DNA from: Buddleja alternifolia
Lineage: Eukaryota > Streptophyta > Magnoliopsida > Lamiales > Scrophulariaceae
DNA: 64,000 bases
NCBI GenBank assembly: GCA_019426215.1
Contig: CM033402.1
Span: 19,659,104-19,723,103, forward strand
Direction: 5' to 3'
How positions within the stretch are numbered: position 1 is the stretch's first letter; each line of letters begins with the position of its first letter. A program made the translations under genes and the position numbers. The notes under the pieces are model-generated. The model was not told the DNA's origin. It was given only the letters and a program-made list of their open reading frames with translations, and ran no database searches. Positions 1,601 through 23,205 of this stretch are shown one piece after another.

Positions 1601-2050
1601 GCAGCCGTGACTATCCCCTATTTTAACAGAATAATCGAATTTTCAACGTTGTTGTTATTATCATTGTGTTGGTTTTGTTATTGTGTTCTTTGAATTATTC
1701 ACCAATCATAATGCATCGTGGGTGATACATGCACGTCGTGGTTGGTTTTGATTAGGTTGGAATTTGTATCAAACACTATGTGTCCGACATCGACCCAACA
1801 GTTTGTTTGGACGTCCCAGTTTATCAATACCAGGGTCAAAGCTGGCCTATCTAAATTGGGCCTCGATCTTCTTACTCTTTGGGAGAGCGAGACCTATTTT
1901 TATTGGGACTTGATTAAATTTTGATTGTCAGAATTTTTCGGGACGTTTTGGTGGAAGGGATCCATTTGCACAGGTGTGAAGTTAAAAGGACCGTTATTGA
2001 GGGTGAAAAGACCGAAATAGCCCCTGTTAATATTTGGCCAAAAGACTTAA
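1601..2050. other. Unassigned left flank of the large MULE
   Basis: No coding region is recognised. The left end of the large Mutator-like element should fall within or just after this stretch, because its characteristic motif and first gene start to the right. I could not identify a terminal inverted repeat or a 9-bp target duplication. Confidence 0.35.
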
Positions 2051-2461
2051 ATAACCCTTGTTAAAGAAGCGTGTTTTCTTAAGAGAAACGCTACTTCCCC
2101 TTTTTTTCTAATAAAAAGAAAAATAAATGCGTGTAATTACTATTTTACCCTTCTTTTTATAAAATTCAGAACAGGATGAACAGAAGCCGGTTCCTCAATT
2201 TAACGCCCCATCATCGAGAGAGAAGAGAGAGCTGGACTGAAAGAAGAAGAAGAAGAAGAAGAGGGATTTATTTAGTTTGATTTTGTTTCGCCTAGGCTCA
2301 GAAGAAGAAGAGGGATTTATTTAGTTTGATTTTGTTTCGCCCAGGCTCAATCGTCATTTTCCCGAAGGTGATTTATAGTTTTGAAGCATATTTCATGCTT
2401 TATGTATCCAGTATTTTATTTTATTTTTTATATTTTTGTATTAATCAGGCATTGTCAGTCA

Positions 2462-5400
2462 ATGGCCCGTCGTCTAGATTTTGTAATGGTCCCTCACGAC
2501 TCTGAGGCATCATCTTCATCTACTCCCCCTGTAAGTTAAGTAAACCCTAATATTTATATATAAGTATTTATATTTTTTTTGAAATGTGAATTACATAGTC
2601 GAAATTTGATTAGATAGACTTACCTTATTTTAACTAGTTTATTAAAATGAAAGTATTCCTGATTTTGTGACATAAATAGTGACTTTAAGTAAGTACAGTG
2701 GCTTTTATTTCAGTATTGGCTTCATGTGATCCAGTATCTTATTTATTAAATGGCAAGTAATATATAGTTGACAAATTGTAATTCCTTTATTAATTGTTTT
2801 TAAGTATACTGGCTTCATTATGATTGATGAAGTTAGGTAATTTTAGAGAAGAAGGTGTTTTTGGAACCTTACATTACATTAAAGTATGACAACAAGTTCA
2901 ACAGCTTTGAATAATAATGTATTATTTTTGTTTCAGGTTCCCACTCTTTGTTTGCCTCTTGGAAATTGTAGTTTCAAGGGCAAGATTTCTACGTACTGCA
3001 AAATGGCAAAAGAATTCAAATTTATTGAGGATTGTTTGAGTGACCATCCTAATGGGATCGCTTGGTTGAGGGATTCTCAGTTTGGCCTTTTTTTTCGACG
3101 CAGCTCCTAACATGGAGATGCTTTTAACTCCTTTGTGGATGCTGCTAAGCCGCAAAGTGAAGTCTAAAAATAAATCTGAGGTTTGGTTTGTTTTGAATGG
3201 CATCCATATTAGATAATCTATGATGGAGCATGCCCTTTTGACTAGCTTGATCTGTGATGAGTATCCTGAAGCAACTATCCCTTTACCAGCTCATATTTTT
3301 GTACAAGACATGTTGGCAAGAAAATCACAGTTGGAGGTATCAAGAAAACACTTACACAGTTTGTGATCCCTCCCCCTGAACCTGAAGAAGGTGTCCCTCC
3401 CAGTGATGATAGTAGCAGTCTAATGAGTGTTAGGCATGGAGCCCGAAGGAACATTGAAGACGACAAGTTGAAGCTTGCTTTGTTGTACTTGTTGTGCTCG
3501 GTATTTTTTTTGGGGGTAATGATAATGCAAAGATAGATTCCAAATTGATACATATTGTTGAAGATCTAGAGTTTGCCAGAGCCTATTCCTGGGGTCGGCG
3601 GTCTTATTCTTTTTTGATTGAATCCGTGACAAGTTTGGACATGCAACAGAAAAGGCTAGCTCAAAGCCCACAGTGGAAATGTCCTGGATTCATTATTCCG
3701 CTGATGGTAATGAAATACTTTTCTGTAATGCTGCATTTCTTTGCTGTAATTGGTCTTCTTTATATTTCTCCATATATAATTTGGCTATTGCTTTTGTTCG
3801 TTTTGTTAGCTTCTTCCATTTGAGTGCATCCCCGCACTGTCTCCTAGTATTGCTCGTTTGAGGGAGAATGTGAATTCCACTTTGCCCAGAATTTGCAAGT
3901 GGTCTACCAAACTCAAACAGAAGAAACAATTTTCCACTTTTGAGGAGGTGCTCAAATTGGTCGTAGACACGAAGGTTTGTGTTTAACTATTTTGCAATGT
4001 GAACTGAACAATGTGAAATAAGTTTTATGTTCTGAAAAAATCAATTTGCTGTTTATAAATATTGGATTTCACTGATGTTTATCCTTAATTTAGGAGGAAT
4101 TCCCCAACTGGCTTCAGTATGTATTCCCCATCTGGCTTCTCCCTCTAATTAGTATATATTATTTGCTTTGTAGGGTAGTATTTTAAGCATAATGAAGCCG
4201 ACTGTGGAGGAAATGTCTTTAATTGACATGGTCAAATTTGTTGCTTATAATGCCCCTAACTCCTCCGTGAAGGATCCGACCACCGAATCTTGGACTGCAA
4301 TACTTGAGAAGGGAGGTCGTGTTATATTTGACGATCTTTACGTAGAAGATGTTGATGGTAAATGTTCTTTCCTTGGATATCAAACAGGAAACATTACTGA
4401 TCCTCCTCCGCAAATCGAACCATGCGTCTCATCAGCCATTCTGCTTGAGAGCGTTCCTACTTTTTCATCCATCCCACAACCCCAAAAGGAAAGTGCTCCC
4501 GGTAATTCATCAGAACCTAACAACGAGGTTGTTAGAGTACTCAGTGAAATACTGGAAAGAATCTCTGCTCTTGAAAAGGCTTGTCATTTGATGGATTCAA
4601 ATGTAAGGGCGATGGATTCAAATGCAAGTGGAAGGTTATCATGTCTAGAAAGCAGGTTAGAAAAATTGGAGAGATTTACAAGGGATGATTTTTCCGCTGA
4701 TTTACAACCATTTGATGCTTCCGCGGGCAGTGAACTAGTTAGGGATCATGATGATGTTGGTGTGGGTAAAGATGAGGTAGATGATGAGGGTGGCTATGGT
4801 CTGGAAGGCGATGTTGCGAATGGCAATGTTGCGAAAGTTCTTATGGAGTTGAATCAGGATGAGGACATGGTGTTAGATGTGCCCCTCGATGTTGACAATC
4901 AGTATCCAAAGCCGGACATTAAGGAGTATCCAAGGAGGGAGCGGAAAAGATCCCATAATTTGCAGTCCCTATACACTGAGTTCTATGCAGCTAAGAAGAA
5001 AGTAAGACGGTGAATTTGTAAGTTATGAATTGATATATTTTTGTTGATATTTCCCAGTTTGCTTTAGATGCATATTGTTTTATCAAAACAGGCCAAGAAG
5101 ATAGTTACAGACCCCTTGGAAAGCCAATTGATAAATGCTGAAATTTTGAAGCATGATGGGCAGGGGAAATTGGGCAGTGAGTTGGAGACCAATGTAGCTA
5201 AAGGCATCACCTTTTCAGATGAGAAATTTGTGTTTAAAGAAGTGAAGATCGAAAAGGAAGATGATGTGGATAATAAAAGGAAGGTGCCTGATGAAATGAC
5301 TGAGGAAATTGTGGCGAAGAAGGATGATGATCATCATGTTGATTACAATAACTATTTTTTGCCTCTCACCAAAGATGAGAATGATCTGATTTCTGAGCAC

Positions 5401-6058
5401 TTGTTCCGTAGTCTCACCAAAATCCAAGCCAAAAAAAAAAACACTGGTAAGGCATGAGACATCTGGTGTTACAGTTTCTGCTGAACAGTTTCAACGTTTG
5501 AAGCCTACCAGATGGCTTAATGATTCTGTGATTGATGTTTTCCTGGCGTTAATGAAAGAAAGAGAGCTGAGGGAACCAACCCAATATTTGAAATGCCATT
5601 ATTTTAGTTCCTTATTTTACCCCCTCTTCAATGTTCATGGTTTTGAATCGGTGAAAAGATGGACTAATACTAGAATTGGTGGAATGGATTATTCTCTGCT
5701 TGATTGTGATAAAATCTTTGTCCCTATCAACAATGAACTGCATTGGACATTAGCCATTATCAGCCCGAAAGACCAAAAAATAGAGTATGTTGATTCCCTT
5801 GGTTATGGTTCTGACGGGGTACATCTTAAAGTGTTTGTTAAATTGGATGAGTACATGAAGCAGTACGCTAAACACTTTTATGACACAAATATAAATTTGT
5901 CTCAATGGCTGCACGAACTCGTCACTGGCAATCCAAAGCAAGAAAATATTCATGACTGCGGTGTGTTCATGCTTAAATCCATCGACTTTTATTGTAGCAG
6001 AGAACACGTTAGACGTGTAAAAGATTTTAAACAGGACAAAATGCCATACTTTAGGTAG
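2462..6058 (+). pseudogene. DUF1985 + Ulp1-like (C48) cysteine protease gene of the MULE, frameshifted
   Basis: Probable exons are 2462-2530 (ends at GTAAGT), 2937 to about 3700, 3810-3974, 4174-5000 and 5092-6058, with GT/AG at the inferred junctions. The second and third exons give a DUF1985 region (EVWFVLNGIHIR, MMEHALLTSLICDEYP, then LPRICKWSTKLK). The fourth has an acidic linker with a Leu-rich stretch, and the last is a Ulp1/C48 domain (see separate entry). KI-type MULE proteins have this DUF1985-linker-C48 order and are thought to act as ubiquitin/SUMO-like proteases. The DUF1985 part carries frame changes at T-runs near 3087, 3300 and 3504 and an in-frame TAA near 3213. An A11 run near 5433 breaks the frame before the protease, and a TAG stops it just before the family end. 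It is a decayed gene unless these are sequencing errors. Confidence 0.8.
5466..6058 (+). other. Ulp1/C48 peptidase domain with complete catalytic set
   Basis: Counting from the Met at 5498, the domain shows RWLNDSVIDVF near the start, His82 in ELHWTLAII, Asp99 in EYVDSLGYG, Gln148 in NPKQEN and Cys154 in HDCGVFMLK. These match the His-Asp-Gln-Cys set of Ulp1-type de-ubiquitin/SUMO peptidases in order and spacing. In-frame coding continues upstream of 5498 (TSGVTVSAEQFQRLKPTRW), so that Met is internal. The domain is intact in itself even though the gene upstream is not. Its substrate cannot be told from sequence. Confidence 0.88.
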
Positions 6059-6354
6059 AAGATTGACTTGGAGATTCTGAATATGCATGTTGTATGATTC
6101 TTTGTACACAAAAAGCTGAATCTGGCTATAGTGTTGATTGTATATTGAGAAAATTTTAGATGTTAGCGAAATGTAATATGTAATGCAATTGTTCCCAGGA
6201 TGATATGATTTTGAGAAAAAATAATTGTTTGTCTTACCACTTATATCTTCATTAGTTTAGAGTTTAATGCAAGACAAACCTTACCTTTACCCAAAAAAAA
6301 TATTAAAAAAAAAACCAAAACAAAAAAACAAAAAAAAAATTCATAAACAAAATA

Positions 6355-7060
6355 TTAGGATACAGGATACCCAGTATCCATTAGTATCCTATTACGTGTG
6401 ATGGTTTCAAAGTTAGGATATTAGGATACAGGATACATTCCCCAGTATCCAGTTCCGTTTATAATTCTGGGTTACCAGATCCATCAGTATCCTGTTTCGA
6501 GCGATCGTTTCAAAGTTAGAATACAGGAGAATCCTGTATTCAGTTTCGTATTTGGCTTATAACTCTTTTCGCAATTTATGTAAATACACACACACACACA
6601 CAGGGTCACCCACATATCCTGTTCCCAATTCCATTTCATAAAACTAAAACAAAATAAATTGAAAAATGTAGCGTGAATACATTGACGTGGACAAATGAGA
6701 AAATTCAATTTCGTAAACCTAAAAAAATGAATTAAAAATGGCAGTGTAAATACTCGGATACAGGATATACAATATCCAATTTCATATATGATTCTGGTTT
6801 ACCGGATTCACCAGTATCCTGTTGCTTATGAGGTTTAAAGAATACGCCAATACAGGATCAGTCCAGTATTCTGTTTCGTATGAGGGTTATACATTTCTTC
6901 CGAATTTATGAAAATACACTGACACAGGGTCATTGCCGTATCCGAATTTTTATTCGAGTGTTAGACTAGCTGAATACTGGTAACAGGACCTTTAAGTATC
7001 TAGTAATATACCCAATTACCGAATACCAGTAATAGGACCTTTTAGTATTCAGTATTCTAA
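6355..7060. repeat. Cluster of GGATAC / CAGTATCC direct and inverted motifs
   Basis: Copies in both orientations recur, for example GGATACAGGATACCCAGTAT near 6358, CCCCAGTATCCAGTTCC near 6440, CAGTATCCTGTTTCG near 6486 and ACCAGTATCCTGTTGC near 6811. Adjacent opposite copies can pair into short hairpins. Similar motifs recur across the MULE. Dense short motifs near MULE ends often bind transposase, but that role here is inference. Confidence 0.7.
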
Positions 7061-7257
7061 AGAATCCACTGAGCCAAGTGGGCTTTTGGGCCATTCGATT
7101 GGGCCGCTACAAATTTAATTAAAATTTTCAAATTAATAAGTTGAACAATACAAGATTTATATTTTTTGTATTAATTATGTTATATAATTTACTTTTTATT
7201 TTATCACGGTAATTTTTATTTTTGACCTCAAGCGTGAACATAAATCTTACAACAGTT

Positions 7258-7845
7258 ACAATTGGTATGTTAAGCATTGAACTTATTCCATTTCTTAGAA
7301 TTTTTATTTTCAAACGAATGATTTGCACTTTATGTTTTTAATTATCTTTTTATTTTATTTCTATTCTTTATTATGAAAATAAAGATAAAAAGTAACTTTA
7401 AAAACTTAAAAAAATGTTACAAAGAAATGCATTAAAAACTATTTTTAGGAATGCTTTGAAAAATTATTTTTATTTATTATTATGAAAAAAAAGTGTTAAT
7501 TAAATTGGTATTTTAAGCGTTGAACTTATGCCATTGAACACTTAATATAAAATTGTTTATAAAATTCATGCATAAATTTTACACGCTTCTTGAAGTTGGT
7601 GGAATAATATGCTGGATTGAAAAATTTTATCTTGGGGTTTTTTGTGGAATTATTTTGTTCCATATAAAACGAATCGCCTGCGCTTTATGTTTTTAAGTAT
7701 GTTTTTATTTTATTTCTATTCTTTATTATGAAAATAAAAAATAAAAAGTAACTTTAAATACTTAAAAAAATGTTACAAAGGAACGCATTAAAAATTATTT
7801 TTAGGAATGCTTTGAAGAATTATTTTTATTTATTATTATGAAACA
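7258..7845. repeat. Imperfect tandem duplication, AT-rich
   Basis: The stretch 7318-7492 is repeated at about 7678-7845 with a few substitutions (shared words include TTTCTATTCTTTATTATG and TTTTTAGGAATGCTTTGA). The preceding words around 7258 (ATTGGTATGTTAAGC) recur near 7507. No coding content. Confidence 0.7.
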
Positions 7846-8019
7846 TAATTTTGAATGAATAGTGCGATTCAGAAATACATTGTGTATATGTTTACAGAAA
7901 ATGGTAAAACAGAACAACAAAAAAATCATATCCAACATTCTCCTGTTCACAAATGAAACAATAACCCTATAACATCTATACAATTGATATGTTCTTCTCT
8001 TGATCTTCCTCAAATTCAT

Positions 8020-8150
8020 TCGCATCCCAGTATCTCTGCATCCGAGAATCTCGTTTCCCAGTGTCACTGCATTCCAGTAATTCCAGTATCTCGTTTCCGA
8101 GTATCACTGCATTCCAGTAATTCCAAATATCTCGTTTCCCAGTTTCCCGT
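8020..8150. repeat. Short degenerate repeats (CTCGTTTCCCAGT / GCATTCCAGTAATTCC)
   Basis: The words CTCGTTTCC[CG]AGT and CACTGCATTCCAGTAATTCC recur two to three times with about 55-bp spacing. They contain the same CAGTA core as the other MULE repeats. Confidence 0.6.
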
Positions 8151-8163
8151 TATGTCTGCATCC

Positions 8164-8285
8164 AAATATCCACAAAGAGACATACACATGGCACATATAT
8201 ATCTAAATATCCACAAAGACACATACACATGGCACATATATATCTAAATATCCACAAAGACACATACACATGGCACATATATACG
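8164..8285. repeat. 41-bp tandem repeat, about 2.9 copies
   Basis: The unit starts AAATATCCACAAAGA and ends CATGGCACATATATATCT. Starts are at 8164, 8205 and 8246; the copies are nearly identical. Confidence 0.85.
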
Positions 8286-8398
8286 TATCCCCTCTTTTCA
8301 TTTCAGGCATCCAGTATGTCAATGTTCACAAATCACAAAAAACGTTATTCATAAAATCCGTAAAATAATTAAAAATTCCAGGGGCAGCACATAATATA

Positions 8399-8427
8399 TA
8401 ATATAATATATATATATATATATATTA
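8399..8427. repeat. (TA)n microsatellite
   Basis: Alternating TA run just 3' of the E2-like gene; a second (TA)n run lies in that gene's third intron at about 8748-8777. Confidence 0.85.
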
Positions 8428-8543
8428 AAAAAATAACGTCATCACATAACAAAAAAAAAACTGCTCCAAAAAAAAATTGTCCAACATTTCAACCCCAAAA
8501 AAAAAAAACACTTGTTCCAACATTCCACCCATCAACATTAAAA

Positions 8544-8745
8544 TTATTCTCCAGCCCCAACGTCCGCATGCTCCAACATCCATGCCTTTGCAATTCGTAG
8601 GTACTTGTCGTGATCGTCCAAGTACTGTTGCAGCGCTTGAGTTGACGATGGATGTGGAGCAGTCACATTTAGTTTTGCCATCAACTGGCGGATTCTTTGA
8701 AGCAACTGAAAAAAAAAATCATTTTATGGTGAATGGATCCATTTC

Positions 8746-8781
<36 letters not shown>

Positions 8782-9319
8782 GGTTATATTGGTAGCAGCA
8801 ATACCTTCGGGATTGTAAGAGCCGGGTTCCATCATTCTCGAAGAATATCAAGTTCGATGCCACCTGTTATGGAGATGTTGGGATGAAAAACCTTTGTCCA
8901 GAAATTGACCTTATCAAACAACCCAACAAAAAGAATAAAAGATCCATTAGCATTATGATTAGACAATTAATATTGCATTTTTATTTAATGTGTCTGTGCT
9001 CAAGGGAATAAGCCTACCAACGGTGGAGACAACGGGAAGTTAGGCCCAAAACGAATGATCAGATTGAAGAAGTGATTGGCATACGGGTTGTTCATTGGGC
9101 CCATCATCCGTGCCTCCCAATGGAAGTCATCGTTGTTCACCGGGCCTGTGGGGAAAAATACGACACACATAAACACAATTTAACTTAACAGGGATGAGTC
9201 CATCAAACCGAATCAGATACCAGAGTAATAGTATGAAAGTTACCAGCAGTAAACCAAAATGTTTCATCAATTATGCGCTTCTCCCTTTCAATCCGTCTCC
9301 TAATATCACCCAACTCCAT
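8544..9319 (-). pseudogene. Ubiquitin-conjugating enzyme (E2)-like gene with Cys-to-Glu active site and one stop
   Basis: Four exons on the minus strand (9319-9244, 9145-9018, 8909-8805, 8705-8544) join in frame at GT/AG introns of about 100 bp to encode 156 aa, the normal size of a UBC fold. Recognisable E2 blocks are AGPVNNDDFHWEARMMGP (residues 25-42), PNFPLSPPL (60-68), VFHPNIS with the conserved HPN motif (about 75-81) and LDILRE followed by WNPALTIPK. The residue eight after the HPN Asn, where active E2s have Cys, is Glu (GGIELDIL), so this would be a UEV-like inactive E2. A TGA stands between LDILRE and WNPAL, where E2s usually have a residue such as Gln. The C-terminus (KYLRIAKAWMLEHA) fits the last E2 helix. 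Start context CACCATGG and an upstream TATA box support the start. It lies inside the Ulp1-carrying MULE and has introns, so DNA-level capture is likely. Confidence 0.85.
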
Positions 9320-9380
9320 GGTGTATATAAGTTATAGAAAACTGAAGAGTTGGGTTGAGAATTTGTGCCTGGTTTGCTCT

Positions 9381-9389
9381 CTTATATAG
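9381..9389 (-). promoter_or_regulatory. Probable TATA box of the E2-like gene
   Basis: On the minus strand CTATATAAGAGAG lies about 60-70 bp upstream of the E2-like ATG, at the usual distance for a plant TATA box with a short leader. Confidence 0.6.
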
Positions 9390-9393
9390 TTAT

Positions 9394-9943
9394 GGTTCCG
9401 TTGGAATTCTAAAAAGCGGCTGATGGACTGTTTGTGAAATGAAAAGCCATAGGTCTATTGAAATTCTAAAACTGTTCGAATGTGTCAATTGAATGTTGGC
9501 GACCTGTCATTCAATAAATTCAGTGTTGGAGTGGCTGATGGAATGTTTGAGAAATGAAGAGGCATGAGTTTGTTCAAATTCTAAAACTGTTTGAATGTGT
9601 CAGTTGAAAGGAATGTTTGAAATCAAAAGGAATGTATCTGTTCTAATTCTAAAACTGTTGGAATGTGTCAGTGGATACCTCTACAAGTCTTTTCATAATG
9701 GTGATACCCAATTTAATCCATAAGATCACCTGCAAAATCAAGTCTTATAATTGCAATTGGCGATCAGAAAAGAGAAGTTGATTTTTCCTTGATGTTTATT
9801 TTAATACCCAACTTTAATTAAATTTTTCTTCAAAATTATTATTGATGTTATTTTCTTGCATATCACGGGGTACAAGATAGTAAGTCAAATTATGTGGAAC
9901 AAGGCGCGTGCATTGCACACTTCAGTTAGGAATAGTAATTAGA
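9394..9943. other. Upstream region of the E2-like gene
   Basis: Contains three degenerate copies of a word like AAATTCTAAAACTGTT[CTG]GAATGTGTC (near 9460, 9577 and 9637). No gene seen. Confidence 0.5.
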
Positions 9944-10192
9944 GGGAAAAATACACGTCTTGGACTCAAAACGAGCTAAATAATTGGCTTACAAAAGATG
10001 AAAAATCAGATTGCCCATGAGACCAACATTGAGATTTTATTTGACTTATGGGACTAAATGTGGCACCTCCTATCCAATGGGATCAACATTGAGATTTTAT
10101 TTGACTTATGAGACTAAATGTGGCACATCCCTATCCAATGAGACCAAAATCGAAAAGTGGGCAATTTACGGGACGAAAACTGCAATTTTCCC
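9944..10192. mobile_element. Possible small MULE-type MITE with internal 61-bp tandem pair
   Basis: The left end GGGAAAAATACACGTCTTGG and the reverse complement of the right end (GGGAAAATTGCAGTTTTCG) are similar imperfect inverted termini. Inside, GACCAACATTGAGATTTTA and its neighbour sequence occur twice, 61 bp apart. No clean target duplication. Confidence 0.4.
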
Positions 10193-10299
10193 ACTAACAA
10201 TCATTTCCCAGTTTTCCAATCAAGTATCTCATACAGTTATAAATGCAGTTATATTTGATGTGCAAAATACTAATATAATTTTTGTTATCAACATACAGT

Positions 10300-11176
10300 A
10301 ATTTCCCAAGATCCTAGTACCCGGTATCTCTACATCCATTATCCCATTATCCAGTTAATAATACTCGAGTTTTGTGAATGCGTCTTGTCTATTAAATCAA
10401 TTTGTAACCAACAACTACCCACGTCTACTAATTAAATGAAAAGTCACAACACACGCAATGTTAGATTTCCAACAACACACAAGCAATGTCACATTTCCCA
10501 GTATAGTAGTGTACTTGCATCCAGTATCCAGTTATTTGTACTCGTGTTTTGTGCCACACACGTGTCTTTTGATGATGCGTCTTGTTTATTAATTAAAGAG
10601 TAAATTAAAAGTCAACAATGTCAGGTTTCCCACAACACACGCAATATCACATTTCCCAGTATATTAGTGTACTTGCATCCAGTATCCAGTTATTTGTGCT
10701 CGTGTTTTGTGCCACACATGCGTCTTTTGATGATGCGTCTTGTCTATTAATTAAAGAGTAAATTAAAAGTCAACAATGTCAGATTTCCAACAACACACAA
10801 CTAATGTCACATTTCCCAGTATATTAGTGTACTTACATCCAGTATCCAGTTTTTTGTACTCGTGTTTTGTGCCACACATGCGTCTTTGATAATGCGTCTT
10901 GTCTATTAATTCAAGGGTAAATTAAAAATCAACAATGTAAGGTTTCCCACAACACACACGCAATGTCACATTTCCCAGTATATTAGTGTACTTGCATCCA
11001 GTATCCAGTTATTTGTGCTCGTGTTTTGTGCCACACATGCGTCTTTTGATGATGCGTCTTGTCTATTAATTAAAGGCTAAATTAAAAGTCAACGATGTCA
11101 GGTTTCCCACAACACACACGTAATGTCACATTTCCCAATATATTAGTGTACTTGCATCCAGTATCCAGTTATTTGT
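10300..11176. repeat. About 160-bp tandem repeat array, interrupted by a retrotransposon
   Basis: Four to five units with starts spaced 158-161 bp (GATGATGCGT at 10571, 10729, about 10888 and 11049). Each contains CATTTCCCAGTATATTAGTG, GCATCCAGTATCCAGTTATT and GCCACACATGCGTC. The array is cut at 11176 by the LTR element and resumes at 17715-17900; a further unit at about 15600-15751 comes from the tandem duplication. Confidence 0.85.
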
Positions 11177-12624
11177 TGATAGGTGTGAGATTTACATGTT
11201 TAAGAGCCTCATATTTATGTTATTTACATTGTTTTATGCATGATTTATGCCACATATGCGTTTAATTTGTGTGCTTATTGAGTAAAGGTGGAAAATCATT
11301 GCAATTGAGGAAAACTAGACGAACATTCAGACTTTTAGATCATTTAGAGACGGAATTTGACAAATGTTTCTTCTACAAAGTTGTAGAGCTCTATCTTAGC
11401 ATCACGTGGAAACTTGAATCACCCAAATCGGAGGTCTGTAGAGAATGTTCTGAAGGAAACAAGATTGCTGCGCAGAAGGCAAAATGTTTCTGTTTCCAAC
11501 GTACGGAGGTTGGGTACTTCACGTTCAGACATTGGTTCTGACGGGAAAAATAGCAGATTTTTGGAAATTTCCAATTCTAATTCAAGTTGGAGTCTTCCCC
11601 TTCCACCCTTATATATATTAGATCAGTTCTCTAGGGTTAAGGGACGGAAATACACATAGAATAGAGCCCTAATGGGGTTTAGACATCGTTTTTACACATT
11701 CATGAAGATTTTCAAAAGCCCTTGAAGGTGAAGAAATCAAGAAGCATGGAAGAGATGAAGATCGAAGTTCAACCATCAAAAATACGAGGGTGTTTCTTAG
11801 ATTTAGATTTATTTTTGTCTATGAATACGAATCTTAATTTAAGTTTCTATCTTTTATCTTTTATGATGAATTAGATTCTTCGAACTAAGGCTATGTTGAG
11901 GCTAAATTATGATATTTGAGTTATAAATTGTGTTTTTCATATTAATTTTGTTGTTGCTTTGTGTATTGATTTTGTGCTGTAATTCCAATCGTATGCCTGA
12001 TCAACATATGCTTGCTAATTAGCCTAGTTTATGATTCGAGAGAATATAAATTAGGGTTCAAAGAAATCATCACATCATCCGAAAAACATGAGGAATTGCT
12101 CCTAGAGATAGGTATAGATTTCCGAGTGCAATTAGCCGGATTTATCCGGGGAAATTCTAAAACGTGAATGCATGACTAATGATTTGATTCTCGGATAGAC
12201 ATATTTAGAGAACCGTCACGTAGTCATAGGATTATTACAGTCGAGAGATCGGGTAGTAATTATTTAAGGTTATTTCCACCAAAGCAACATTAGTCAAATA
12301 ATATGAAAACATGATTTTAACCAAATTAATTAAATTATACCAACACATGTGTCTTAGTTGCTCTCTTCCATAGCTATCTTGATTTCAACATCTTGTTTCT
12401 TGTATCTTGCTTCCAAGTATTTTAGTTAATTATTGTTTTAGTTTATTTTATTGCTTTTAAAATCTTTAAATCTTTAGTTTTAGTTTAATTATTGCTTGCT
12501 TTAAATTCAAGAAGTCTAAAATACAAGTCTCTGTGGGATCGACAATTCGGACTTAAAAATCCACTTTATTACTACACACGACCAGTCCACTTGCTGTGCA
12601 AACACGTGAGGATTTCTCGTGTCA
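11177..12624 (+). repeat. 5' LTR of the non-autonomous Athila-like element
   Basis: Starts TGATAGGTGTGAG and ends TTTCTCGTGTCA (TG...CA), 1448 bp. Its middle (GGAATTGCTCCTAGAGATAG, ATTCTCGGATAGACATATTT) matches the corresponding part of the 13-kb Athila LTRs on the other strand, showing family relationship. Confidence 0.8.
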
Positions 12625-12630
12625 AGTTTT

Positions 12631-12648
12631 TAGCGCCGTTGCCGGGGA
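12631..12648 (+). promoter_or_regulatory. Primer binding site (tRNA-Asp type)
   Basis: TAGCGCCGTTGCCGGGGA lies six bases after the LTR. It differs by one base from TGGCGCCGTTGCCGGGGA, the complement of the 3' end of plant tRNA-Asp used by Athila-type elements. Confidence 0.8.
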
Positions 12649-12763
12649 CTTGTTTCTTTAGTTTTTGTTTTTATTGCAAGTATTTATTTTATTTTTATTT
12701 TTTTTCTTTCTTTCTTTGTTTTTGTTTTAATTTTTATTTTTTGTTTATTAATTTTAGGTACCA

Positions 12764-13270
12764 ATGGCAAGATATCGTCTGTCCCCAACTCTGGAAGAAC
12801 GAGAATGGGTTCGACAACTCATTCATGACTTACAACTCACATTAGATGATTTGGATCAGCCGGAAAATATGAAATTGGTACACAAAGCCATTGATGCTTT
12901 GTATGAAGGACCGATTAAGGAGGCTCTAATGATCGTTGAGGAAATAAAAAACGAGAGGATTTATGTTAAGGTGTCAACACCTCAGCGTCGCACACCTAAC
13001 GTTCAAGCATCCGAGACATTGGGAAATCTTCCGTTTTTGACCCCGGAGCAACAAGAATGGGTTCTAGGACTCATTCAGGATATGCAACTCACTCTCGAGG
13101 ATTTGAATTGTCCGAGAAATAGGCAATGGGTGTCCGATGTCGTTCAAGTATGTTATGCACAAGGGTTCTTTCCCCAACATTGCCAAGTGAGAATTCCTAC
13201 TGAGGAGGTACAACACGACATCACCTTTGAAGAGCTTCGCCTTATGCTAAAGACGTATGTCAAGGAATAA
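12764..13270 (+). CDS. Novel 168-aa protein with an internal ~45-residue duplication
   Basis: First ORF after the PBS. I do not recognise the family. The protein contains two similar blocks: LSPTLEEREWVRQLIHDLQL then TLDDLD-P-N (about residues 6-50), and LTPEQQEWVLGLIQDMQL then TLEDLN-P-N (about residues 92-135). Each resembles a helical P--EWV--LI-D-QLTL-DL unit. It takes the position where autonomous Athila elements have gag, but it lacks the gag features of the 1850-aa polyprotein. The preceding sequence (CAAGTTTTTAGCGCC) is the PBS leader. No stop or frameshift interrupts it. Function unknown; a structural protein acting for the element's particles is only a guess. Confidence 0.6.
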   Translation: MARYRLSPTLEEREWVRQLIHDLQLTLDDLDQPENMKLVHKAIDALYEGPIKEALMIVEEIKNERIYVKVSTPQRRTPNVQASETLGNLPFLTPEQQEWVLGLIQDMQLTLEDLNCPRNRQWVSDVVQVCYAQGFFPQHCQVRIPTEEVQHDITFEELRLMLKTYVKE

Positions 13271-13356
13271 AGGAGATCGATCATCAAATCGAGCAACAAT
13301 CGAGCATCATCTATCAGAGAGAACTTGAAACACTGCTGAGTGACACTGATGAGAAT

Positions 13357-13992
13357 TTGAAGGAGGAATACAACACCGTGACGTTGAATGAAGAAAAGTC
13401 CAAAATGTCAGAAATTTCGCCCCTGCACATCACGTTCAAATGTGCCGGTCAAGACGTTCCAACATCTGCGGCAGACTCCTCCATCAATGAGTATTCGACT
13501 CCTATACTTTCTGAACCGATTGAAGTTCCTTTACCATCTCCCATAGTCACAGGTAAAGCGGTATTTGATGCCGACGATGGTAAGTTGTCATTGAATGTAG
13601 GAGATGATATGGTTAATTTTGATAGCTATGAGGTTTTTGAGCATCCTCTTGATTTTGATTTGTCTTTACATATTGATGTTTTTTATCCTTTTAGTGTTGA
13701 GATTTCTCAGGTTAAAAGAACCAATAGTCTCCGCGAGTCCTACATCATGAACTCCAAGTTTTCCACTTCGATGGGTGAAGAAGAATGGTCATGTACTTAT
13801 AACTTGGAGAATAGTCCAAATCATCACTCGGCGCAATGGGAAGAAAAAGTGATGGAAGTGGTGATGGACTATGATAAAATATTTGAGTGGATGATTGCTT
13901 GGTCACTACTCATCATATTTTCTACTAACACCGGGCCAAATTTCATCGTTACTTGGAGAATGAACAAGGTATTTATTCGGAAACCTCCTTGA
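13357..13992 (+). CDS. Second ORF with an Athila protease-tail remnant
   Basis: 211 codons. Residues about 66-108 (VTGKAVFDADDGKLSLNVGD then YEVFEHPLDFD) align with the part of the 1850-aa Athila polyprotein just after its aspartic protease ([20 protein letters not shown] then [11 protein letters not shown]). The catalytic DSG box itself is absent. The N-terminal third is unrelated low-complexity sequence and the C-terminal third (WEEKVMEVVMDYDKIFEWM) is unrecognised. The ORF therefore looks like a deletion derivative of gag-pol in which protease-tail sequence was kept and RT onward was lost. It lies 86 bp after the first ORF. Its last third is repeated at 15752-16089. Confidence 0.6.
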   Translation: MKEEYNTVTLNEEKSKMSEISPLHITFKCAGQDVPTSAADSSINEYSTPILSEPIEVPLPSPIVTGKAVFDADDGKLSLNVGDDMVNFDSYEVFEHPLDFDLSLHIDVFYPFSVEISQVKRTNSLRESYIMNSKFSTSMGEEEWSCTYNLENSPNHHSAQWEEKVMEVVMDYDKIFEWMIAWSLLIIFSTNTGPNFIVTWRMNKVFIRKPP

Positions 13993-14007
13993 GCCAACTC
14001 TGTAAAG

Positions 14008-14056
14008 TCAAGCTAGTGACTTTAAAAGAGCGCTTCTTGGGAGGCAACCCAAGATT
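14008..14056 (+). promoter_or_regulatory. Conserved Athila-family motif (GCGCTTCTTGGGAGGCAACCC type)
   Basis: AAGCTAGTGACTTTAAAAGAG followed by CTTCTTGGGAGGCAACCC. Nearly the same block occurs on - at 31643-31690, 56279-56327 and 62652-62699, always just after the pol or ORF end. A copy at about 16112-16155 comes from the duplication. Role unknown. Confidence 0.7.
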
Positions 14057-14304
14057 TTTGTTTTCTTTTTGTTTTTGCATTCTAGTAGTTTAGTTGTTTT
14101 TGGTTTGTTTTCAAAAAAAGAAAAAAGAAAAAAGAAAAAAAATATGCTCTAGTTGTGATTTATTAAGTGCATGATTGATGATGACATACTATGGAGATTG
14201 GAGTGCCCATTTGGAGCCACACTTGGAATTATGCATGAGACTAGGTTCGGTTTTCACCGACCTATGAGGTTAAGTGTTTCTTTTCACTCTTTTTGTGCTT
14301 TATG

Positions 14305-14350
14305 AGAGACAACATTGAGGACAATGTTGAATTTAAGTTTGGGGGTGTGA
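14305..14350 (+). promoter_or_regulatory. Hairpin AACATTG-AGGA-CAATGTT followed by G-tract
   Basis: A short inverted repeat (ACAACATTGAGGACAATGTT) is followed about 10 bp later by GTTTGGGGGTGTG, a second polypurine-like tract well inside the element. Equivalent blocks stand in all Athila-like elements of the window. Confidence 0.6.
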
Positions 14351-15751
14351 GAAGCGCTTAATTGTTGAGTAGTTATTGAATATATTGGTGATATGCATGT
14401 TTCCAAGTTTGGAGGAATTTGTATGCTATCATGTTTAGATGCTTTTATGTTGAGAAAATCGAGCATGAAAAAAAAAATGTAGCCTACCAATTAATGCAAT
14501 GAAATGGATTAATTTGATTTGATGGCATAATTTCTTGACTTTATATTTGAATTTAATGGAAATACACATTCTTTACTTTGCTCGTGGGACCCCAGATTAG
14601 AGTAGATTTTTCTTAGATGAAGCACAATGCACGACAAGTCGAGGGTAGAGGAGTTAAGTGGATAATCATTCTGAACACTTAAGGAATTTCTCACGAAATA
14701 TTGACTTAGATTTTTCTTAGGGTCATGAGTTGAGTAGTTGCTTCATATGCCTAAGGATAATGAATAAGGTTGATGAAAATTGGTATGACTATAAAGTCAG
14801 GCTATAATGTATTGGAGGTGAAAAGCTACATGCCTATAAACGTACTATTAAGCTAATTTGAGCTTTTGTTCAAGCCAATTAGAGTTAAAGTGAATGAAAG
14901 GTCTAGTTTTATTTCGGGCCTTTGACACTCGAGTGATTAAATCCGTAAGGAGTGTCCTGACACTTAATGCCCTAAAACTATCTAGTTTGGGGTCATTGAT
15001 CCAAAGCTCGATACATGGGTGTCATGGAAAGCCTAAGGGAATAGAACATTGCACATGACCTAGCCTTAATGAATTTAAATGGAAGTTTCATGTGAAGTTA
15101 AAGGTTAAATGTTTAAGTAATGAAAGTAAGTGGCTATGGAGTTTTCTATGAGGCTTTGTACTTTAGGATTGATCGAGGTTATAGATATGGAGAAAATCTG
15201 AAATTTGGTAAGGGTGCCACTTTACTATAATGCCGTAACTTACAATCACTACACCCTTTGGATGGTTTATTCGAGTCAAGGTGTAACATGAGCAGTCATG
15301 ATATGTGTATACAACTTTTGAGCTTTAAAGTCGATTTTATTGTCTTGTTTCTGTTGATTAAGTTGAGTTGGTTTGTTGGTGGGACTAAAATTTTGTTGGA
15401 TTTTGTGGGTATATCTTCTGCAAACCCTCACAAGACGAAACTCGTCCTCTTTTGGAAAAATTGAGGTTTAACGGCTTGTTGCACATGCTAAGTGCAATCG
15501 TTCACTCCACGAAAGTGAGTTTATCCTTTTGTTTTTGTTTTTGTTGTTGTGTTTATCTCTTTGGTTGTTGCTTCTTGATCTTATATCTAAGTCTTTTTGT
15601 TGCCACACATGCATATTTTGAGATGCGTCTTGTCTTTTAATTAAAGGGTAAATAAAAGTCAACAATATCAGGTTTCCCACAAAACCCACACGCAATGTCA
15701 CGTTTCCCAGTATATTAGTGTCCTGCATCCAGTATCCAGTATTTGTAATCG

Positions 15752-16089
15752 GGTTTGATTTTCTTTACATATTGATGTTTTTTATCTTTAGTGTTGAGAT
15801 TTCTCAGGTTAAAAGAACCAATAGTCTCCGCGAGTCCTCATCATTGAACTCCAAGTTTTCCACTTCGATGGGTGAAGAAGAATGGTCATGTACTTATAAC
15901 TTGGAGAATAGTCCAAATCATCACTCGGCGCAATGGGAAGAAAAAGTGATGGAAGTGGTGATGGACTATGATAAAATATTTGAGTGGATGATTGCTTGGT
16001 CACTACTCATCATATTTTCTACTAACACCGGGCCAAATTTCATCGTTACTTGGAGAATGAACAAGGTATTTATTCGGAAACCTCCTTGA
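15752..16089 (+). pseudogene. Duplicated 3' end of the Athila-remnant ORF
   Basis: Repeats the last ~105 codons of 13357-13992 (SVEISQVKRTNSLRESS onward, same stop). It lacks the first part of the ORF and has a small indel near 15838, so it has no start of its own. Confidence 0.75.
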
Positions 16090-17714
16090 GCCAACTCTGT
16101 AAAGTCAAGCTAGTGACTTTAAAAGAGCGCTTCTTGGGAGGCAACCCAAGATTTTTGTTTTCTTTTTGTTTTTGCATTCTAGTAGTTTAGTTGTTTTTGG
16201 TTTGTTTTCAAAAAAAGAAAAAAGAAAAAAGAAAAAAAAAATTATGCTCGATAGTTGTGATTTATTAAGTGCATGATTGATGATGACATACTATGGAGAT
16301 TGGAGTGCACCATTTGGAGCCACACTTGGAATTTATGCATGAGACTAGGTTCGGTTTTCACCGACCTATGAGGTTAAGTGTTTCTTTTCACTCTTTTTGT
16401 GCTTTATGAGAGACAACATTGAGGACAATGTTGAATTTAAGTTTGGGGGTGTGAGAAGCGCTTAATTGTTGAGTAGTTATTGAATATATTGGTGATATGC
16501 ATGTTTCCAAGTTTGGAGGAATTTGTATGCTATCATGTTTAGATGCTTTTATGTTGAGAAAATCGAGCATGAAAAAAAAAATGTAGCCTACCAATTAATG
16601 CAATGAAATGGATTAATTTGATTTGATGGCATAATTTCTTGACTTATATTTGAATTTAATGGAAAATACACATATCTTTACTTTGCTCGTGGGACCCCAG
16701 ATTAGAGTAGATTTTTCTTAGATGAAGCACAAATGCACGACAAGTCGAGGGTAGAGGAGTTAAGTGGATAATCATTCTGAAACACTTAAGGAATTTCTCA
16801 CGAAAATATTGACTTAGATTTTTCTTAGGGTCATGAGTTGAGTAGTTGCTTCATATGCCTAAGGAATAATGAATAAGGTTGATGAAAATTGGTATGACTA
16901 TAAAGTCAGGCTGATATGTATTGGAGGTGAAAAGCTACATGCCTATAAACTGTACTATTAAGCTAATTTGAGCTTTGTTCAAGCCAATTAGAGTTAAAAG
17001 TGAATGAAAGGTCTAGTTTTATTTCGTGGCCTTTGACACTCGAGTGATTAAATCCGTAAGGAGTGTCTGGACACTTAATGCCCTAAAACTATCTAGTTTG
17101 GGAGTCATTGATCCAAAGCTCGATACATGGGTGTCATGGAAAGCCTAAGGGAATAGAACATTGCACATGACCTAGCCTTAATGAATTTAAATGGAAGTTT
17201 CATGTGAAGTTAAAGGTTAAATGTTTAAGTAATGAAATGTAAGTGGCTATGGAGTTTTCTATGAGGCTTGTACTTTAGGATTGATCGAAGGTTAGTAGAT
17301 ATGGGAGAAAATCTGAAATTTGGTAAGGGTGCCACTTGACTATAATGCCGTAGACTTACAATCACTACACCCTTTGGATGGTTTATTCGAGTCAAGGTGT
17401 AACATGAGCAAGTCATTGATATGTGTATACAACTTTTGAGCTTTAAAGGTCGATTTTATGTCATTGTTTTCTTGTTGATTAAGTTGATTTGTGTTGGTTG
17501 GGTGGGACTAAAATTTTGTTGGATTTTGTGGGTATATCTTCTGCAAACCCTCACAAGACGAAACTCGTCCTCTTTTGGAAAAATTGAGGTTTAACGGCTT
17601 GTTGCACATGCTAAGTGCAATCGTTCACTCCACGAAAGTGAGTTTATCCTTTTGTTTTTGTTGTTGTTGTTGTGTTTATCTCTTTGGTTGTTGCTTCTTG
17701 ATCTTATATCTAAG
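16090..17714. other. Non-coding 3' part of the duplicated element
   Basis: Holds second copies of the conserved motif and of the hairpin/G-tract (about 16405-16455). No gene is seen. Confidence 0.6.
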
Positions 17715-17965
17715 TCTTTTTGTTGCCACACATGCATATTTTGATGATGCGTCTTGTCTTTTAATTAAAGGGTAAATTAAAAGTCAACAATATCAGGTTT
17801 CCCACAACACACACGCAATGTCACATTTCCCAGTATATTAGTGTACTTGCATCCAGTATCCAGTTATTTGTACTCGTGTTTTGTGCCAACTTATGCGTCA
17901 TCAAGGCTATTAACTAAAGGCTAAATTAAAAGTCACCACAATATTACATTTCCCATATACTGGAA

Positions 17966-18196
17966 ATGCAAAGAAACAAGCGGATTGATAAATTGATCCG
18001 AAGGCGTTAGAAGATTTCATTAGAAATCCAGAGAGAATTCGCTAGAAGTAAACAACTTATAGTGGATCATCAAGCAGAGCTGAGATACTACTATGCAAGG
18101 CAATTAGCTCTGAATGATAAATTTCAAGGCAACGTAGTGAGCGATTTACAACTCGCTGAGATCCAAGGCAAATGGCCTGGCAAATCAATCAACTGA
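17966..18196 (+). pseudogene. Unrecognised short coding-like frame of the MULE, one stop
   Basis: From ATG 17966 the frame reads 77 codons with a single TAG at codon 15 and ends at TGA. The peptide after the stop (EFARSKQLIVDHQAELRYYY, then DLQLAEIQGKWPG) is charged, helical-looking and not low-complexity, unlike the flanks. I do not recognise it. It may be an exon of a longer decayed gene. It follows the 160-bp repeat that resumes after the LTR element. Confidence 0.35.
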
Positions 18197-18627
18197 ACAT
18201 AATGTTTTCGTTTCTTGTTTTTAAATAATGTCGTGTCTATTAATTAATTTCCAACCATCGAACTGTAGTGTTACTATTGCAAAATAATAATATAATTTTA
18301 ATACTTAGGTTTGAGCATATCAATGCTTGCGTCGTGTCTATTAATTACATTTCCAACGCATGCGCAACGTTAGATTTCCCAGTATATCAGTATCTCTGCA
18401 TCAGTATCCAGTTATTAATACCCGATTTTCTTTGTGCCTACTAATGCCTAATGCGTCTTTTCATTATGCGTCGTGTCAACTACAGTGTTCATGAACCAAC
18501 TACACTATTCATTCATGAACACACTATCTATTTAATTAATTCCAACTCTCCATATTCATTCCAACTCTATTTCTCTTCGTATTCATTCATGAAAAACTGC
18601 ACTATAAATAAATTTCCCCATATTCAT
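18197..18627. other. AT-rich non-coding stretch with AGTATCC-type motifs
   Basis: Contains CCCAGTATATCAGTATCTC and GCATCAGTATCCAGTTATT near 18378-18415. No gene is seen. Confidence 0.5.
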
Positions 18628-19015
18628 TTATAAACTATGCCCGTCATTCTTATTACTTTGCTTGTAGTTTCTGATATGTTTCTCATCATGTAAACACAGT
18701 TCAAAATCATCGGACAGAAGCTCATCGTCGCTGACATCCAAGCCATCTGACTCTTCGTCAACATCATCATCAACCTTAAAAGGGTCAACTGTTAGGGCAT
18801 TTTCCTTAAAGCCCAGACTATCTTCCGAGGATTGAGTTGAAGCGGTTCTGGTGGACCATCCATCCCCATCCATTCCATGACGTCGCATTACTTGGTCTCA
18901 ATTCTGCATAGTACGGGCCATTGGCCGGCCTGTGTGGCATCAGTTCTTCCCCCTCCGGTACTAGATTCTTCATAATCTGGGGAATCGGAAACTTGGACTT
19001 CTTAGTCAATATCAC
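18628..19015 (-). pseudogene. Unrecognised acidic-tailed protein fragment, frame shift inside
   Basis: Two overlapping minus-strand frames make one plausible decayed protein. The upstream part is IPQIMKNLVPEGEELMPHRP and continues to PYYAELRP. The downstream part is GWSTRTASTQSSEDSLGFKE and then the strongly acidic DDDVDEESDGLDVSDDELLS, ending SNKNDGHSL. The frame changes around 18870-18895. Acidic tails are common in nuclear proteins, but no domain is recognised. It lies on the same strand as mudrA inside the MULE. Confidence is limited because both frames are short. Confidence 0.35.
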
Positions 19016-19076
19016 AAGCTGTTAAATCAAGCAAAAGACGGTCTTTCTTATGGAGGGGAAGTTATAGAATAACAGA

Positions 19077-19354
19077 GTCACTAATGACTTTATTTAGTCA
19101 CAATTCTGCATTCTTTGGGCCAATAATTCCTCGAAAGTTTCTAGCAAACCTTTCTTCCTTGTGAGTGCACCCAGTCTCCTTCAATTTGTTCTTTGTCTCA
19201 AGTAAGTAATTTTCAAAATTTACTTGGTTGAGACAAAGAATAAATTGAAGGAGACTTAGTGCACTCAAAAGGAGGAAGGTTTGCTAAGAAATTTTCTAGG
19301 AATTATTGGCCAACGAATGCAGAATTCTGAATAAATGAATTCCAAATTAGTGAC
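19077..19354. mobile_element. Fold-back MITE, near-perfect hairpin
   Basis: Two arms of about 135 bp are inverted copies around a centre at about 19213 (GTCTCAAGTAAGTAATTTT against AAAATTTACTTGGTTGAGAC). The outer ends are GTCACTAAT and ATTAGTGAC. The arms share words such as TTCTGCATTC/GAATGCAGAA and CAAACCTTTC/GGAAGGTTTG. No clear target duplication; superfamily unknown. Confidence 0.8.
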
Positions 19355-19380
19355 ACATTTTTGTTTTTGTTTTCTTCCAG

Positions 19381-19488
19381 TATCCTGGGTTTCCATGGAC
19401 GGTGTTTGTTTTTGGCTTTGGTTTAGCAGTATGCTGGGATCATGTTGTTTTGTCGTCTCAGAAGTCCCAAGTTAATGCTTATGGTTGA
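19381..19488 (+). pseudogene. Captured last exon of a host gene
   Basis: A strong splice acceptor (TTTTGTTTTCTTCCAG) is followed by 35 codons and a TGA: YPGFPWTVFVFGFGLAVCWD, then HVVLSSQKSQVNAYG. The composition (aromatic, Gly-rich, hydrophobic centre) and the following T-rich 3'-UTR-like sequence to about 19700 look like the last exon of an expressed plant gene, perhaps of a membrane protein, but I cannot name it. The MITE directly upstream cuts off any earlier exons. Capture of gene pieces is known for MULEs (Pack-MULE behaviour). Confidence 0.5.
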
Positions 19489-20335
19489 ATTTTTGACAGA
19501 AGCGAATGGAGGTTGTATTGTTGCGTAGTATATTTAAATATGTTGCTGTGTGTACATGTCACATGATGTGGTGATTTTTTGTTGATGTAATTCAGGTGAT
19601 GTAATATAAACTCGGGTGCAAGTAGAGGTTCTGTTGTTTAATAGTCTAAGTTGGGAATTTGGTTCAAATTCACTTGTAAGAACAAATTAGCAAAATATTT
19701 TATACATGTAATGTATTTCCAATTGACATTTAGTTTATGTTTTGTTGTTTATCAGTTTAATCTTAGTAGTTTACGTTCTGTTATATCCTATACACAAAAC
19801 TCAGGCTAAATGCACCTATAATCACAACTGCAACAAAGAGATCATTGAATACAAGATAAATCACAAAACACATAAACTTCATTCAAATACCACAAAATGC
19901 CATTCATGTTCCAAACATGCATCCAAAAAAAAAAAAGAAACTGCAGTACAAGTCATGAAATACAGATGATGCACATTTCCACATTTCCTAGTAAAAATCT
20001 CTTGCACCCATTAAATTGAAATATACTTCTAACAACATTAGAGGTATTTTGCACATTAGACTTGCACCAATTTTAATTGCACATGTAAAAATCAAAAATT
20101 TAGAGACACAACAACATAGATATATACCTCCCCCTCTAAGGCTCTAACAACACATGATCCATAAATTGAAATACAAAAACAAAACAGTAATTCGTGTTTA
20201 TCTACTCGCAATAGTTTAATCCACAACAACCCAAACAAACAAAATACATAGATGATACACACATTCTCTAAAGAATCATTACACAAATTACAATAACACT
20301 CTTCGTGGACATTGTACAAACTCGGTCATAGACAC
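19489..20335. other. 3'-UTR-like and AT-rich sequence, no gene seen
   Basis: The first 200 bp probably continue the 3' UTR of the captured exon. The rest shows no supported coding sequence on either strand and precedes the stop of the minus-strand gene at 20336. Confidence 0.45.
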
Positions 20336-21043
20336 TTAAATTCGTCCACACTCCACACCAAATGCCTCATCATCGCTTGCAGAATCACTGGATTGAGCCC
20401 AATCCTCCAAATTGTCACAATCATGTGACAATACTTCATTATCATTATCTATTTCCTTTACGATAATATTCAACAGGTGAATATTATTATCCTTTTCCTC
20501 AATTACCTTTCTAGTAGAGTTTGAGAGATAATGATCAACCATCATCGATATTAACTATTTTACCTTCGTTTTGAAGGTAATGTACAAGCAGGAATCATTG
20601 GCTGCATCAAGTTTCTCCTTATATGGATCGGAATTTTTTGGTGGCTTGTGGTGTGTTTGCACATAAAGACCTCTCATCAGAAGACCAGGAGGAATCAAGC
20701 TGCACATTACACTCAAATTAGTTACATAAAGGTTGGAAAAAGAATCATTCATATATTATTATACAACACATACCTTTGACGCGGATGCACACGGTTCTTT
20801 TGTTGTTGGTCATATTCCGCAACAACACAGAATGCACTATCATATTGTTTAAAAATACAATAATTTTGTTTGTCATAGATGGACGCTCTAGAAGACTCCA
20901 TCCCCGTTATTGAGAAGACCACAACAGCCAATAACTTAATTATCTCAGATTTTAGTTTAAACCTATAGGCACATGATTCACACCCCCCCGCCCTTTGACA
21001 AGTACTGAGAGCACAGCAGCCAAGTACTCCACATTGATTCATC
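20336..21043 (-). pseudogene. Unrecognised spliced gene of the MULE, one in-frame stop
   Basis: Two coding exons: 21043-20774 (ATG at 21042, donor CAAAG/GTATGTG) and 20699-20336 (acceptor GTGCAG/CTTG), joined in frame, about 210 codons. An untranslated exon ending at about 21371 (AAG/GTAAATT) and an acceptor ATATTAG right before the ATG suggest a 5'-UTR intron. The protein starts with a Cys-rich segment (GVLGCCALSTCQRAGGCESC), then MESSRASIYDKQNYC, IPPGLLMRGLYVQTHHKPP and an acidic tail SSDSASDDEAFGVECGRI. A TAG interrupts the frame after FKTKVK. No known domain is recognised. It has the same orientation as mudrA, and its UTR has a CTCTCT-rich leader. It may be a third protein of this MULE type. 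Confidence 0.5.
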
Positions 21044-22815: not shown

Positions 22816-22871
22816 CACAATATAGACTCAGACTCATCTTCTGCTATTATTTACAGCACAATGAATGATGA

Positions 22872-23147: not shown

Positions 23148-23205
23148 ATAAATCATATGAGACAAAATATTGTTTATGCTTTTTTACCACAAATAAAACA
23201 ATTGT

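Follow-up and report, generated by a model that had tools for sequence, protein, structure and literature searches.

Why should a MULE carry a gene for a protein that resembles an E2 (ubiquitin-conjugating enzyme) but has Glu where the catalytic Cys is expected? This question is raised by a locus in Buddleja alternifolia, for which an earlier note, made from the sequence, had described a four-exon E2-like gene inside a MULE. In the following, "the window" denotes the whole stretch of 64,000 nucleotides that was analysed (C13:19659104-19723103 of the 853.6-Mb assembly), and coordinates are window positions unless C13 is named. We first describe the gene and the element that contains it, then the other copies in the genome, and then consider what the protein might do.

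Structure and predicted fold of the E2-like gene

The gene lies on the minus strand (9319-8544) and has the four exons and three GT/AG introns that had been proposed for it:

9383..9389, minus strand: TATATAA box, putative promoter, about 65 nt 5' of the ATG
9244..9319, minus strand: exon 1, with the ATG at 9319-9317
9018..9145, minus strand: exon 2, which holds the FHW block
8805..8909, minus strand: exon 3, with HPN, the Glu at the Cys site and a TGA; its PF00179 match is C13:19667899-19668015
8544..8705, minus strand: exon 4, including the stop codon

The coding sequence of 471 nt corresponds to 156 codons, counting the TGA at codon 94, and a stop codon. Its start context is ACCATGG. The TATATAA box is present in six of the eight copy rows printed (the window included) and is missing in the distant rows L046 and L049.

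All the blocks of the protein that the earlier note had listed (FHWEARMMGP, HPN and WNPAL) are found, and the HMM check on the predicted protein gives UQ_con (PF00179) with an E-value of 6.1e-30 and a score of 104 bits, where the cut-off is 27. Judged by sequence similarity, the E2-like match is far beyond chance. In a sequence search, the closest solved structures are those of UBE2D2/D3 (E ~1e-31), and the top match is 9gls, an engineered C85E mutant of human UBCH5B. Two AF2 models were calculated: the first has a pLDDT of 43, and the second, of the relative P0001, has a pLDDT of 67, a moderate confidence that supports no residue-level structural claims. With the P0001 model, Foldseek gives UbcH5b as the best match (E 1.4e-14), in keeping with a predicted UBC fold.

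The Glu is encoded by GAA at codon 87, which aligns with Cys85 of UBE2D, and the one in-frame TGA is codon 94; in both respects the first reading of the locus was correct. In the alignment, Leu-Ser stands in place of the Phe-Lys of the YPFKPP loop of UBE2D, and NPDDPLV is also altered. We take this Phe-Lys to be residues facing E1/E3, and because such residues differ, the binding of partners by the E2-like protein is uncertain. A search of the 64-kb window with Rfam at gathering scores matched nothing.

Gene content and borders of the element

Ten further copies were fetched as 20-kb stretches, of which eight are close and two distant (L025 and L027). The placement of the gene inside a MULE is borne out by mudrA, Ulp1, the target-site duplications (TSDs) and the aligned borders of the copies. 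The features of the element, apart from the E2-like gene, are as follows:

1931..1939, no strand: left TSD GAATTTTTC, with one mismatch to the right TSD
1940..39737, no strand: whole MULE copy, two nested insertions included; net about 18 kb
4174..5010, plus strand: KIU-like upstream exon or ORF of the Ulp1 gene, in six of the eight close fetched copies
5390..6058, plus strand: catalytic domain of the Ulp1/C48 protease (PF02902, E 5e-30; SENP2 match), convergent to the E2-like gene
10456..11176, no strand: tandem repeats of about 160 bp upstream of the E2-like gene, several of which contain CAGTATCC; a nested insertion splits the array
11177..17718, no strand: remnant of a nested LTR retroelement that includes a tandem duplication (97%); its right border is approximate
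18640..18888, minus strand: acidic exon, which precedes the E2 domain in the annotated relatives P0003, P0006, P0008 and P0011
20752..21090, minus strand: conserved ORF20, CQRAGGCESCAYRF..., in seven of the eight close copies
21915..22817, no strand: 176-bp tandem repeats downstream of mudrA, also in copies
23209..25587, minus strand: mudrA transposase (MULE, SWIM, Plant_all_beta), with an in-frame TGA at 23832-23830
25958..39089, minus strand: nested Ty3-type LTR retrotransposon, TSD GCTAT
39738..39746, no strand: right TSD GAATTTTCC, 9 bp, which pairs with the left TSD

Excluding the nested stretches, the MULE of the window is 17955 nt long, and the copies are 16.4-18.0 kb long. On the left, the alignment begins at 1939-1944 in all three copies whose left side was fetched; on the right, six copies end at 39737-39740, and the end of L017 was located by the terminal motif. 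MULE target-site duplications are 8-11 bp long, and those found here, in 4/4 copies tested, are 9-10 bp: exact in L009 (CCAAGTAGGC), L017 (TGCGGTTTGA, read by eye from the flanks) and L021 (GCCGTTGTC), and with one mismatch in the window. For a long TIR, the alignment of the two outer sides, made when the exact ends had yet to be located, was no better than shuffles, which fits a non-TIR MULE. A short degenerate similarity of the ends is seen by eye only.

The tandem array is present in L009 and L017 without the LTR-retroelement remnant, and in seven copies the alignment runs through the insertion site of the Ty3-type element as if it were empty. A tandem duplication of 2.1 kb (13654-17881, 97% identical) spans LTR-element sequence as well as MULE tandem repeats and, because it includes both, probably arose after the insertion. 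In the Ty3-type element, gag-pol is a frame of 1855 aa, and 3' of pol lies a separate PF20167 ORF of 440 aa (30648-29329); a related copy of this element begins at 57039.

In mudrA, the matches to PF10551 (E 2.2e-19) and PF04434 (E 1.2e-7) are above the cut-off and that to DBD_Tnp_Mut is below it. The C48 protease gene lies inside the TSD-bounded element in the opposite orientation to mudrA. A His, an Asp, a Gln and a Cys of the protease fall on the SENP/Ulp1 site in the alignment and are presumably the catalytic residues; all four are kept in five of the six close Ulp1 copies read, among them L023, which is broken elsewhere. In the sixth, L015, which is frameshifted, the His is replaced by Gln and the Gln by Glu. 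A protein search with Ulp1 gave a single match, Cryptomeria ESD4, probably because candidates were limited to 0.55-1.75 times the query length.

Neither the KIU-like exon nor ORF20 has a Pfam match; ORF20 may be an additional gene that belongs to the element. The acidic exon, matched only in L017 among the fetched copies, is a possible alternative first exon of the E2-like gene. In each of the eight close copies (seven fetched and the window), one strand has 5-13 occurrences of the motif CAGTATCC and the opposite strand has one; in the window it ranges from 2407 to 22613, and many occurrences are inside tandem repeats, where the counts are not independent. It does not occur in the flanks, and the distant copies have at most one.

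Copies in the genome and linkage to Ulp1

A DNA search of the same assembly with the E2-like gene gives at least 52 rows. After removal of 12 rows, nine of them short (31-45 nt) and within AT repeats and the other three pieces of places that are already in the count, 40 usable places are left, among which two pairs (on C2 and C19) may each represent one interrupted copy. In the corresponding search with the Ulp1 domain, 40 of 401 candidates were scored, which gave 43 rows; the 40 that are used leave aside three that are additional parts of a single place on C4.

A convergent downstream Ulp1 gene lies within 25 kb in 37 of the 40 E2 places and within 6 kb in 32, and the 37 linked places draw on 35 of the 40 Ulp1 places. 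Thus, the presence of the gene in other MULE copies of this genome, which the earlier note had left to be checked, is confirmed. Among the eight close fetched copies, mudrA adjoins the E2-like gene in seven, and Ulp1 is within the fetched stretch in six and at 5.5 and 16.7 kb from the E2-like gene in the other two. The stretch of L013 shows neither mudrA nor Ulp1.

The catalytic site across copies

The E2-like gene was read in 29 copies, i.e. the window, the eight close copies and twenty further copies. Codon 87 is GAA in 26 of them, CAA in two and AAA in one; the replacement of Cys, for which the earlier note had proposed such a comparison, is shared, with Glu in most copies and Gln or Lys in the other three. 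Cys, the catalytic residue of an active E2 enzyme, is found at this codon in 0/29 copies, and it was therefore lost before the split of all the clades seen, between which the median dS is up to 0.24. A sequencing error at the site is ruled out by the identical Glu codon in so many copies. Asp89 and W95 are invariant, Asn79 is retained in 28 copies and HPN is nearly invariant. The copies with a residue other than Glu and no in-frame stop are L013 and L049 (Lys/Gln variants), each of which has an altered splice acceptor.

Without the Cys, a UBC fold is unable to bind ubiquitin or SUMO as a thioester, and an E2 chemistry via Glu is not known. Since the residues of Ulp1 are kept and the Cys of the E2 is lost, the element retains a complete-looking deconjugase together with a dead conjugase.

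Decay and selection

The E2-like copy of the window is decayed. Eight of its residues differ from eight annotated relatives, and five of these fit C>T/G>A changes, including CGA to TGA, where the yardstick is 16% of possible single-step nonsynonymous changes and ignores the general excess of transitions; some of the eight residues are also found in the copies that were fetched afterwards. Four of the 29 copies have TGA at codon 94. In-frame stops are present in 13 copies, and the other 16 have none in the aligned exons, although in some of these the frame is shifted or a splice site is altered. In L011 the start and the six splice sites are all present and the frame is open over 157 codons; the comparison of L011 with L009 gives nine synonymous and three nonsynonymous changes (omega 0.09-0.11). 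The view that the MULE carries a gene for a modified E2-like protein thus holds for the family as a whole, with one copy (L011) open.

In a codon model with branches pooled, the 29 copies have an omega of 0.83 (lnL -3815.7 vs -3817.9 at omega 1), and the window with seven copies has an E2 omega of 0.73 (lnL -1101.5 vs -1106.5 at omega 1); these likelihood differences are approximate, because kappa, too, was fixed in the null model (at 3) and the trees of the eight-copy comparison were searched separately. For the same eight copies, parts of mudrA have omega values of 0.82, 1.13 and 1.58, and for seven of them (L011 absent) the values are 0.82 for Ulp1 and 0.77 for the KIU exon. The median omega is 0.88-0.94 between clades and 0.71-0.84 within clades, pairs that include the window copy range from 0.65 to 1.54, and two sets picked for the absence of stops give 0.77 and 0.67. 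Purifying selection, which had been suggested as a test of the gene, is thus supported in that constraint is no weaker than on mudrA and Ulp1; its strength is weak to moderate, with a 29-copy omega hardly below 1. We read this as selection that acted while the elements were active, most of the signal being diluted by dead copies.

Origin of the gene

The retained introns rule out a retrocopy and agree with the capture at the DNA level, rather than by retroposition, for which the earlier note had argued. The exon borders equal those of the plant gene models P0014, P0016 and P0019 (one exon repeated or started exactly), and this match to UBC10-type models indicates indirectly that the introns of the captured gene are ancestral.

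Of 18 candidates in the first protein search, 12 have E <= 0.001, and every one of these is a Buddleja alternifolia protein. In a profile search, the best 120 of 1134 matches comprise the family itself, P0018 (Buddleja) and then mostly canonical plant UBC10/28-type E2s, which are 45-57% identical over the aligned part among the matches listed. In the tree, ten family rows form one clade (support 100/100), from which the 17 other E2 rows are separate. Several annotated relatives read on into a flank with a match in the window at 8.16-7.98 kb, and in four relatives the first exon corresponds to 18.9-18.6 kb, a first sign of common flanks.

The distant copies L025 and L027 belong to a second MULE subfamily, whose mudrA has about 50% protein identity (37% in one part of L025). 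Both have UBC exons in the same relative place, beside mudrA; the gene is UBC10-like and differs from that of the main family:

L025, 4738-5260: UBC exons
L027, 4924-5448: UBC exons

Ulp1 follows in the same order in L025, and there is none within the stretch of L027. At the Cys position, L025 has Ser by alignment and L027 is frameshifted. Their E2s group with canonical E2s, and a common origin with the main family is not rejected (p-AU 0.175); the tree prefers separate captures, by which the two subfamilies would have obtained their E2s independently. As an observation on plant E2s in general, P0015 of Gossypium barbadense has two E2 domains, and the first of them, which reads GSIHIDIL at its active site, is apparently Cys-less.

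Proposed role and alternatives

Our preferred reading, to which we assign a probability of about 0.45, is that this Ulp1-MULE family carries a pseudo-E2, i.e. a captured UBC10/28-type gene changed from Cys to Glu, whose product may act with Ulp1 against silencing, as a decoy or UEV-like partner. According to this model, Ulp1-MULEs of 16-18 kb would carry the gene between mudrA and Ulp1 as a standing component. A canonical UBC10/28-type (UBE2D-like) E2 would have been captured as genomic DNA with its introns, and its catalytic Cys would have changed to Glu before the present copies diverged. Given this change, the protein should hold the E2 fold but form no thioester with ubiquitin or SUMO. It could then block or redirect conjugation as a decoy or a non-covalent, UEV-like partner, the Ulp1 of the element would strip conjugates alongside it, and together they might dampen SUMO- or ubiquitin-dependent silencing of the element. 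We infer the anti-silencing role from the Cys-less UBC fold, the UEV precedent, the presence of Ulp1 and repeats laid out in a VANC-like manner, in analogy to VANC/KIU elements; the gene would presumably be expressed and its product would have protein partners. A stronger version, in which the dead E2 and Ulp1 form a dedicated anti-silencing module for conjugation interference and two MULE subfamilies took an E2 into the same slot, appears rather unlikely to us.

Alternatively, the gene may be a neutral hitchhiker, in which case a single transduplication of a host E2 was followed by the loss of its Cys, and MULE movement alone multiplied a gene without any function. The omega of 0.83 over 29 copies, the between-clade medians of 0.88-0.94 and the in-frame stops in 13 of 29 copies are all in line with this, as is the statement, in an excerpt of PMC2528002, that most gene fragments captured by transposons are seemingly non-functional pseudogenes. 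However, the constraint on the E2 is at least equal to that on mudrA and Ulp1 in the same copies, synonymous changes outnumber nonsynonymous ones by nine to three between L009 and L011, and the gene has been retained across a between-clade dN of about 0.2 with D89 and W95 invariant and HPN nearly so. In addition, the second MULE subfamily has a UBC gene in the same slot. We hold neutrality to be less likely than not. A simpler suggestion, prompted by the TGA of the window copy, is a lone host E2 pseudogene adjoining the MULE; it is ruled out by the 40 places, the linkage of 37 of them to Ulp1 and the TSDs that enclose the gene, and its chance is practically nil.

Other functions can be imagined for the protein. 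As a chaperone or adaptor of the transposase or of Ulp1, apart from ubiquitin/SUMO chemistry, it could persist as a fold while its E3/E1-facing residues were altered, and the linkage to Ulp1 (37 of 40 places) and mudrA (seven of eight close copies) would suit such a task; the fact that its neighbour is a Ulp1 protease speaks against leaving this chemistry aside, and we rate the idea as quite improbable. Even less credit is due to a Glu with a chemistry of its own or one that mimics a charged E2. Although Glu is present in 26 of 29 copies and a crystal structure of human UBCH5B C85E exists (9gls), so that the fold tolerates the change, Lys and Gln are found in the stop-free L013 and L049, each with its altered splice acceptor, and this proposal is very improbable.

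To return to the pseudo-E2 acting with Ulp1, the occurrence in dozens of copies of a second member of the same chemistry beside the protease suggests that conjugation interference helps these MULEs. The two proteins make up a defined, testable pair in one plant lineage.

Comparison with known systems

Outside the family, the closest proteins among the matches listed are those of the plant UBC10/28 group and human UBE2D (UbcH5), with which the MULE protein shares the fold, the exon borders and the HPN motif. It differs from them in the change of Cys to Glu and of Phe-Lys to Leu-Ser and in the altered NPDDPLV. UEV proteins (Mms2/Uev1A, TSG101) have an E2 fold without the catalytic Cys and act as partners. 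The MULE protein would be similar to them in its predicted E2 fold and lack of the Cys; unlike UEVs, it is apparently derived from a UBE2D-type E2, it is encoded by a transposon, and the missing Cys is replaced by a Glu that is conserved.

Four papers, PMC2528002, PMC13317346, PMC5735166 and PMC10398659, deal with MULEs that carry Ulp1 and with VANC elements, and the excerpts of these papers make no mention of an E2. Literature searches over titles and the starts of abstracts likewise surfaced no MULE with an E2 gene, in agreement with the earlier note, which knew of no such family; this is weak evidence of absence, as subscription journals are mostly uncovered. Ulp1-carrying MULEs are thus known, and a Cys-less E2 as their standing component did not turn up in the literature searched. 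According to a review passage (PMC2528002/PMC13317346), the role of Ulp1 in MULEs is unknown, and why MULEs carry such proteases is a question on which the Cys-less E2 bears.

In excerpts of PMC2528002 and PMC13317346, Ulp1-carrying MULEs are described as KAONASHI/KIU type and also from melon, rice and grapevine, and the Ulp1 gene of KI-MULE is reversed relative to mudrA. As far as these excerpts go, the elements analysed here resemble KI-MULE in having mudrA and a C48 gene in reverse orientation, many copies and no long TIR found; they differ from it in the E2-like gene that sits between mudrA and the Ulp1 gene. VANC21 binds YAGTATTAY, according to an excerpt of PMC5735166. With VANDAL/VANC, as described there, they share the layout of the repeats, i.e. 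a short motif enriched on one strand in non-coding repeats, here CAGTATCC, whereas the motif itself differs from YAGTATTAY and the genes for Ulp1 and the E2-like protein are added.
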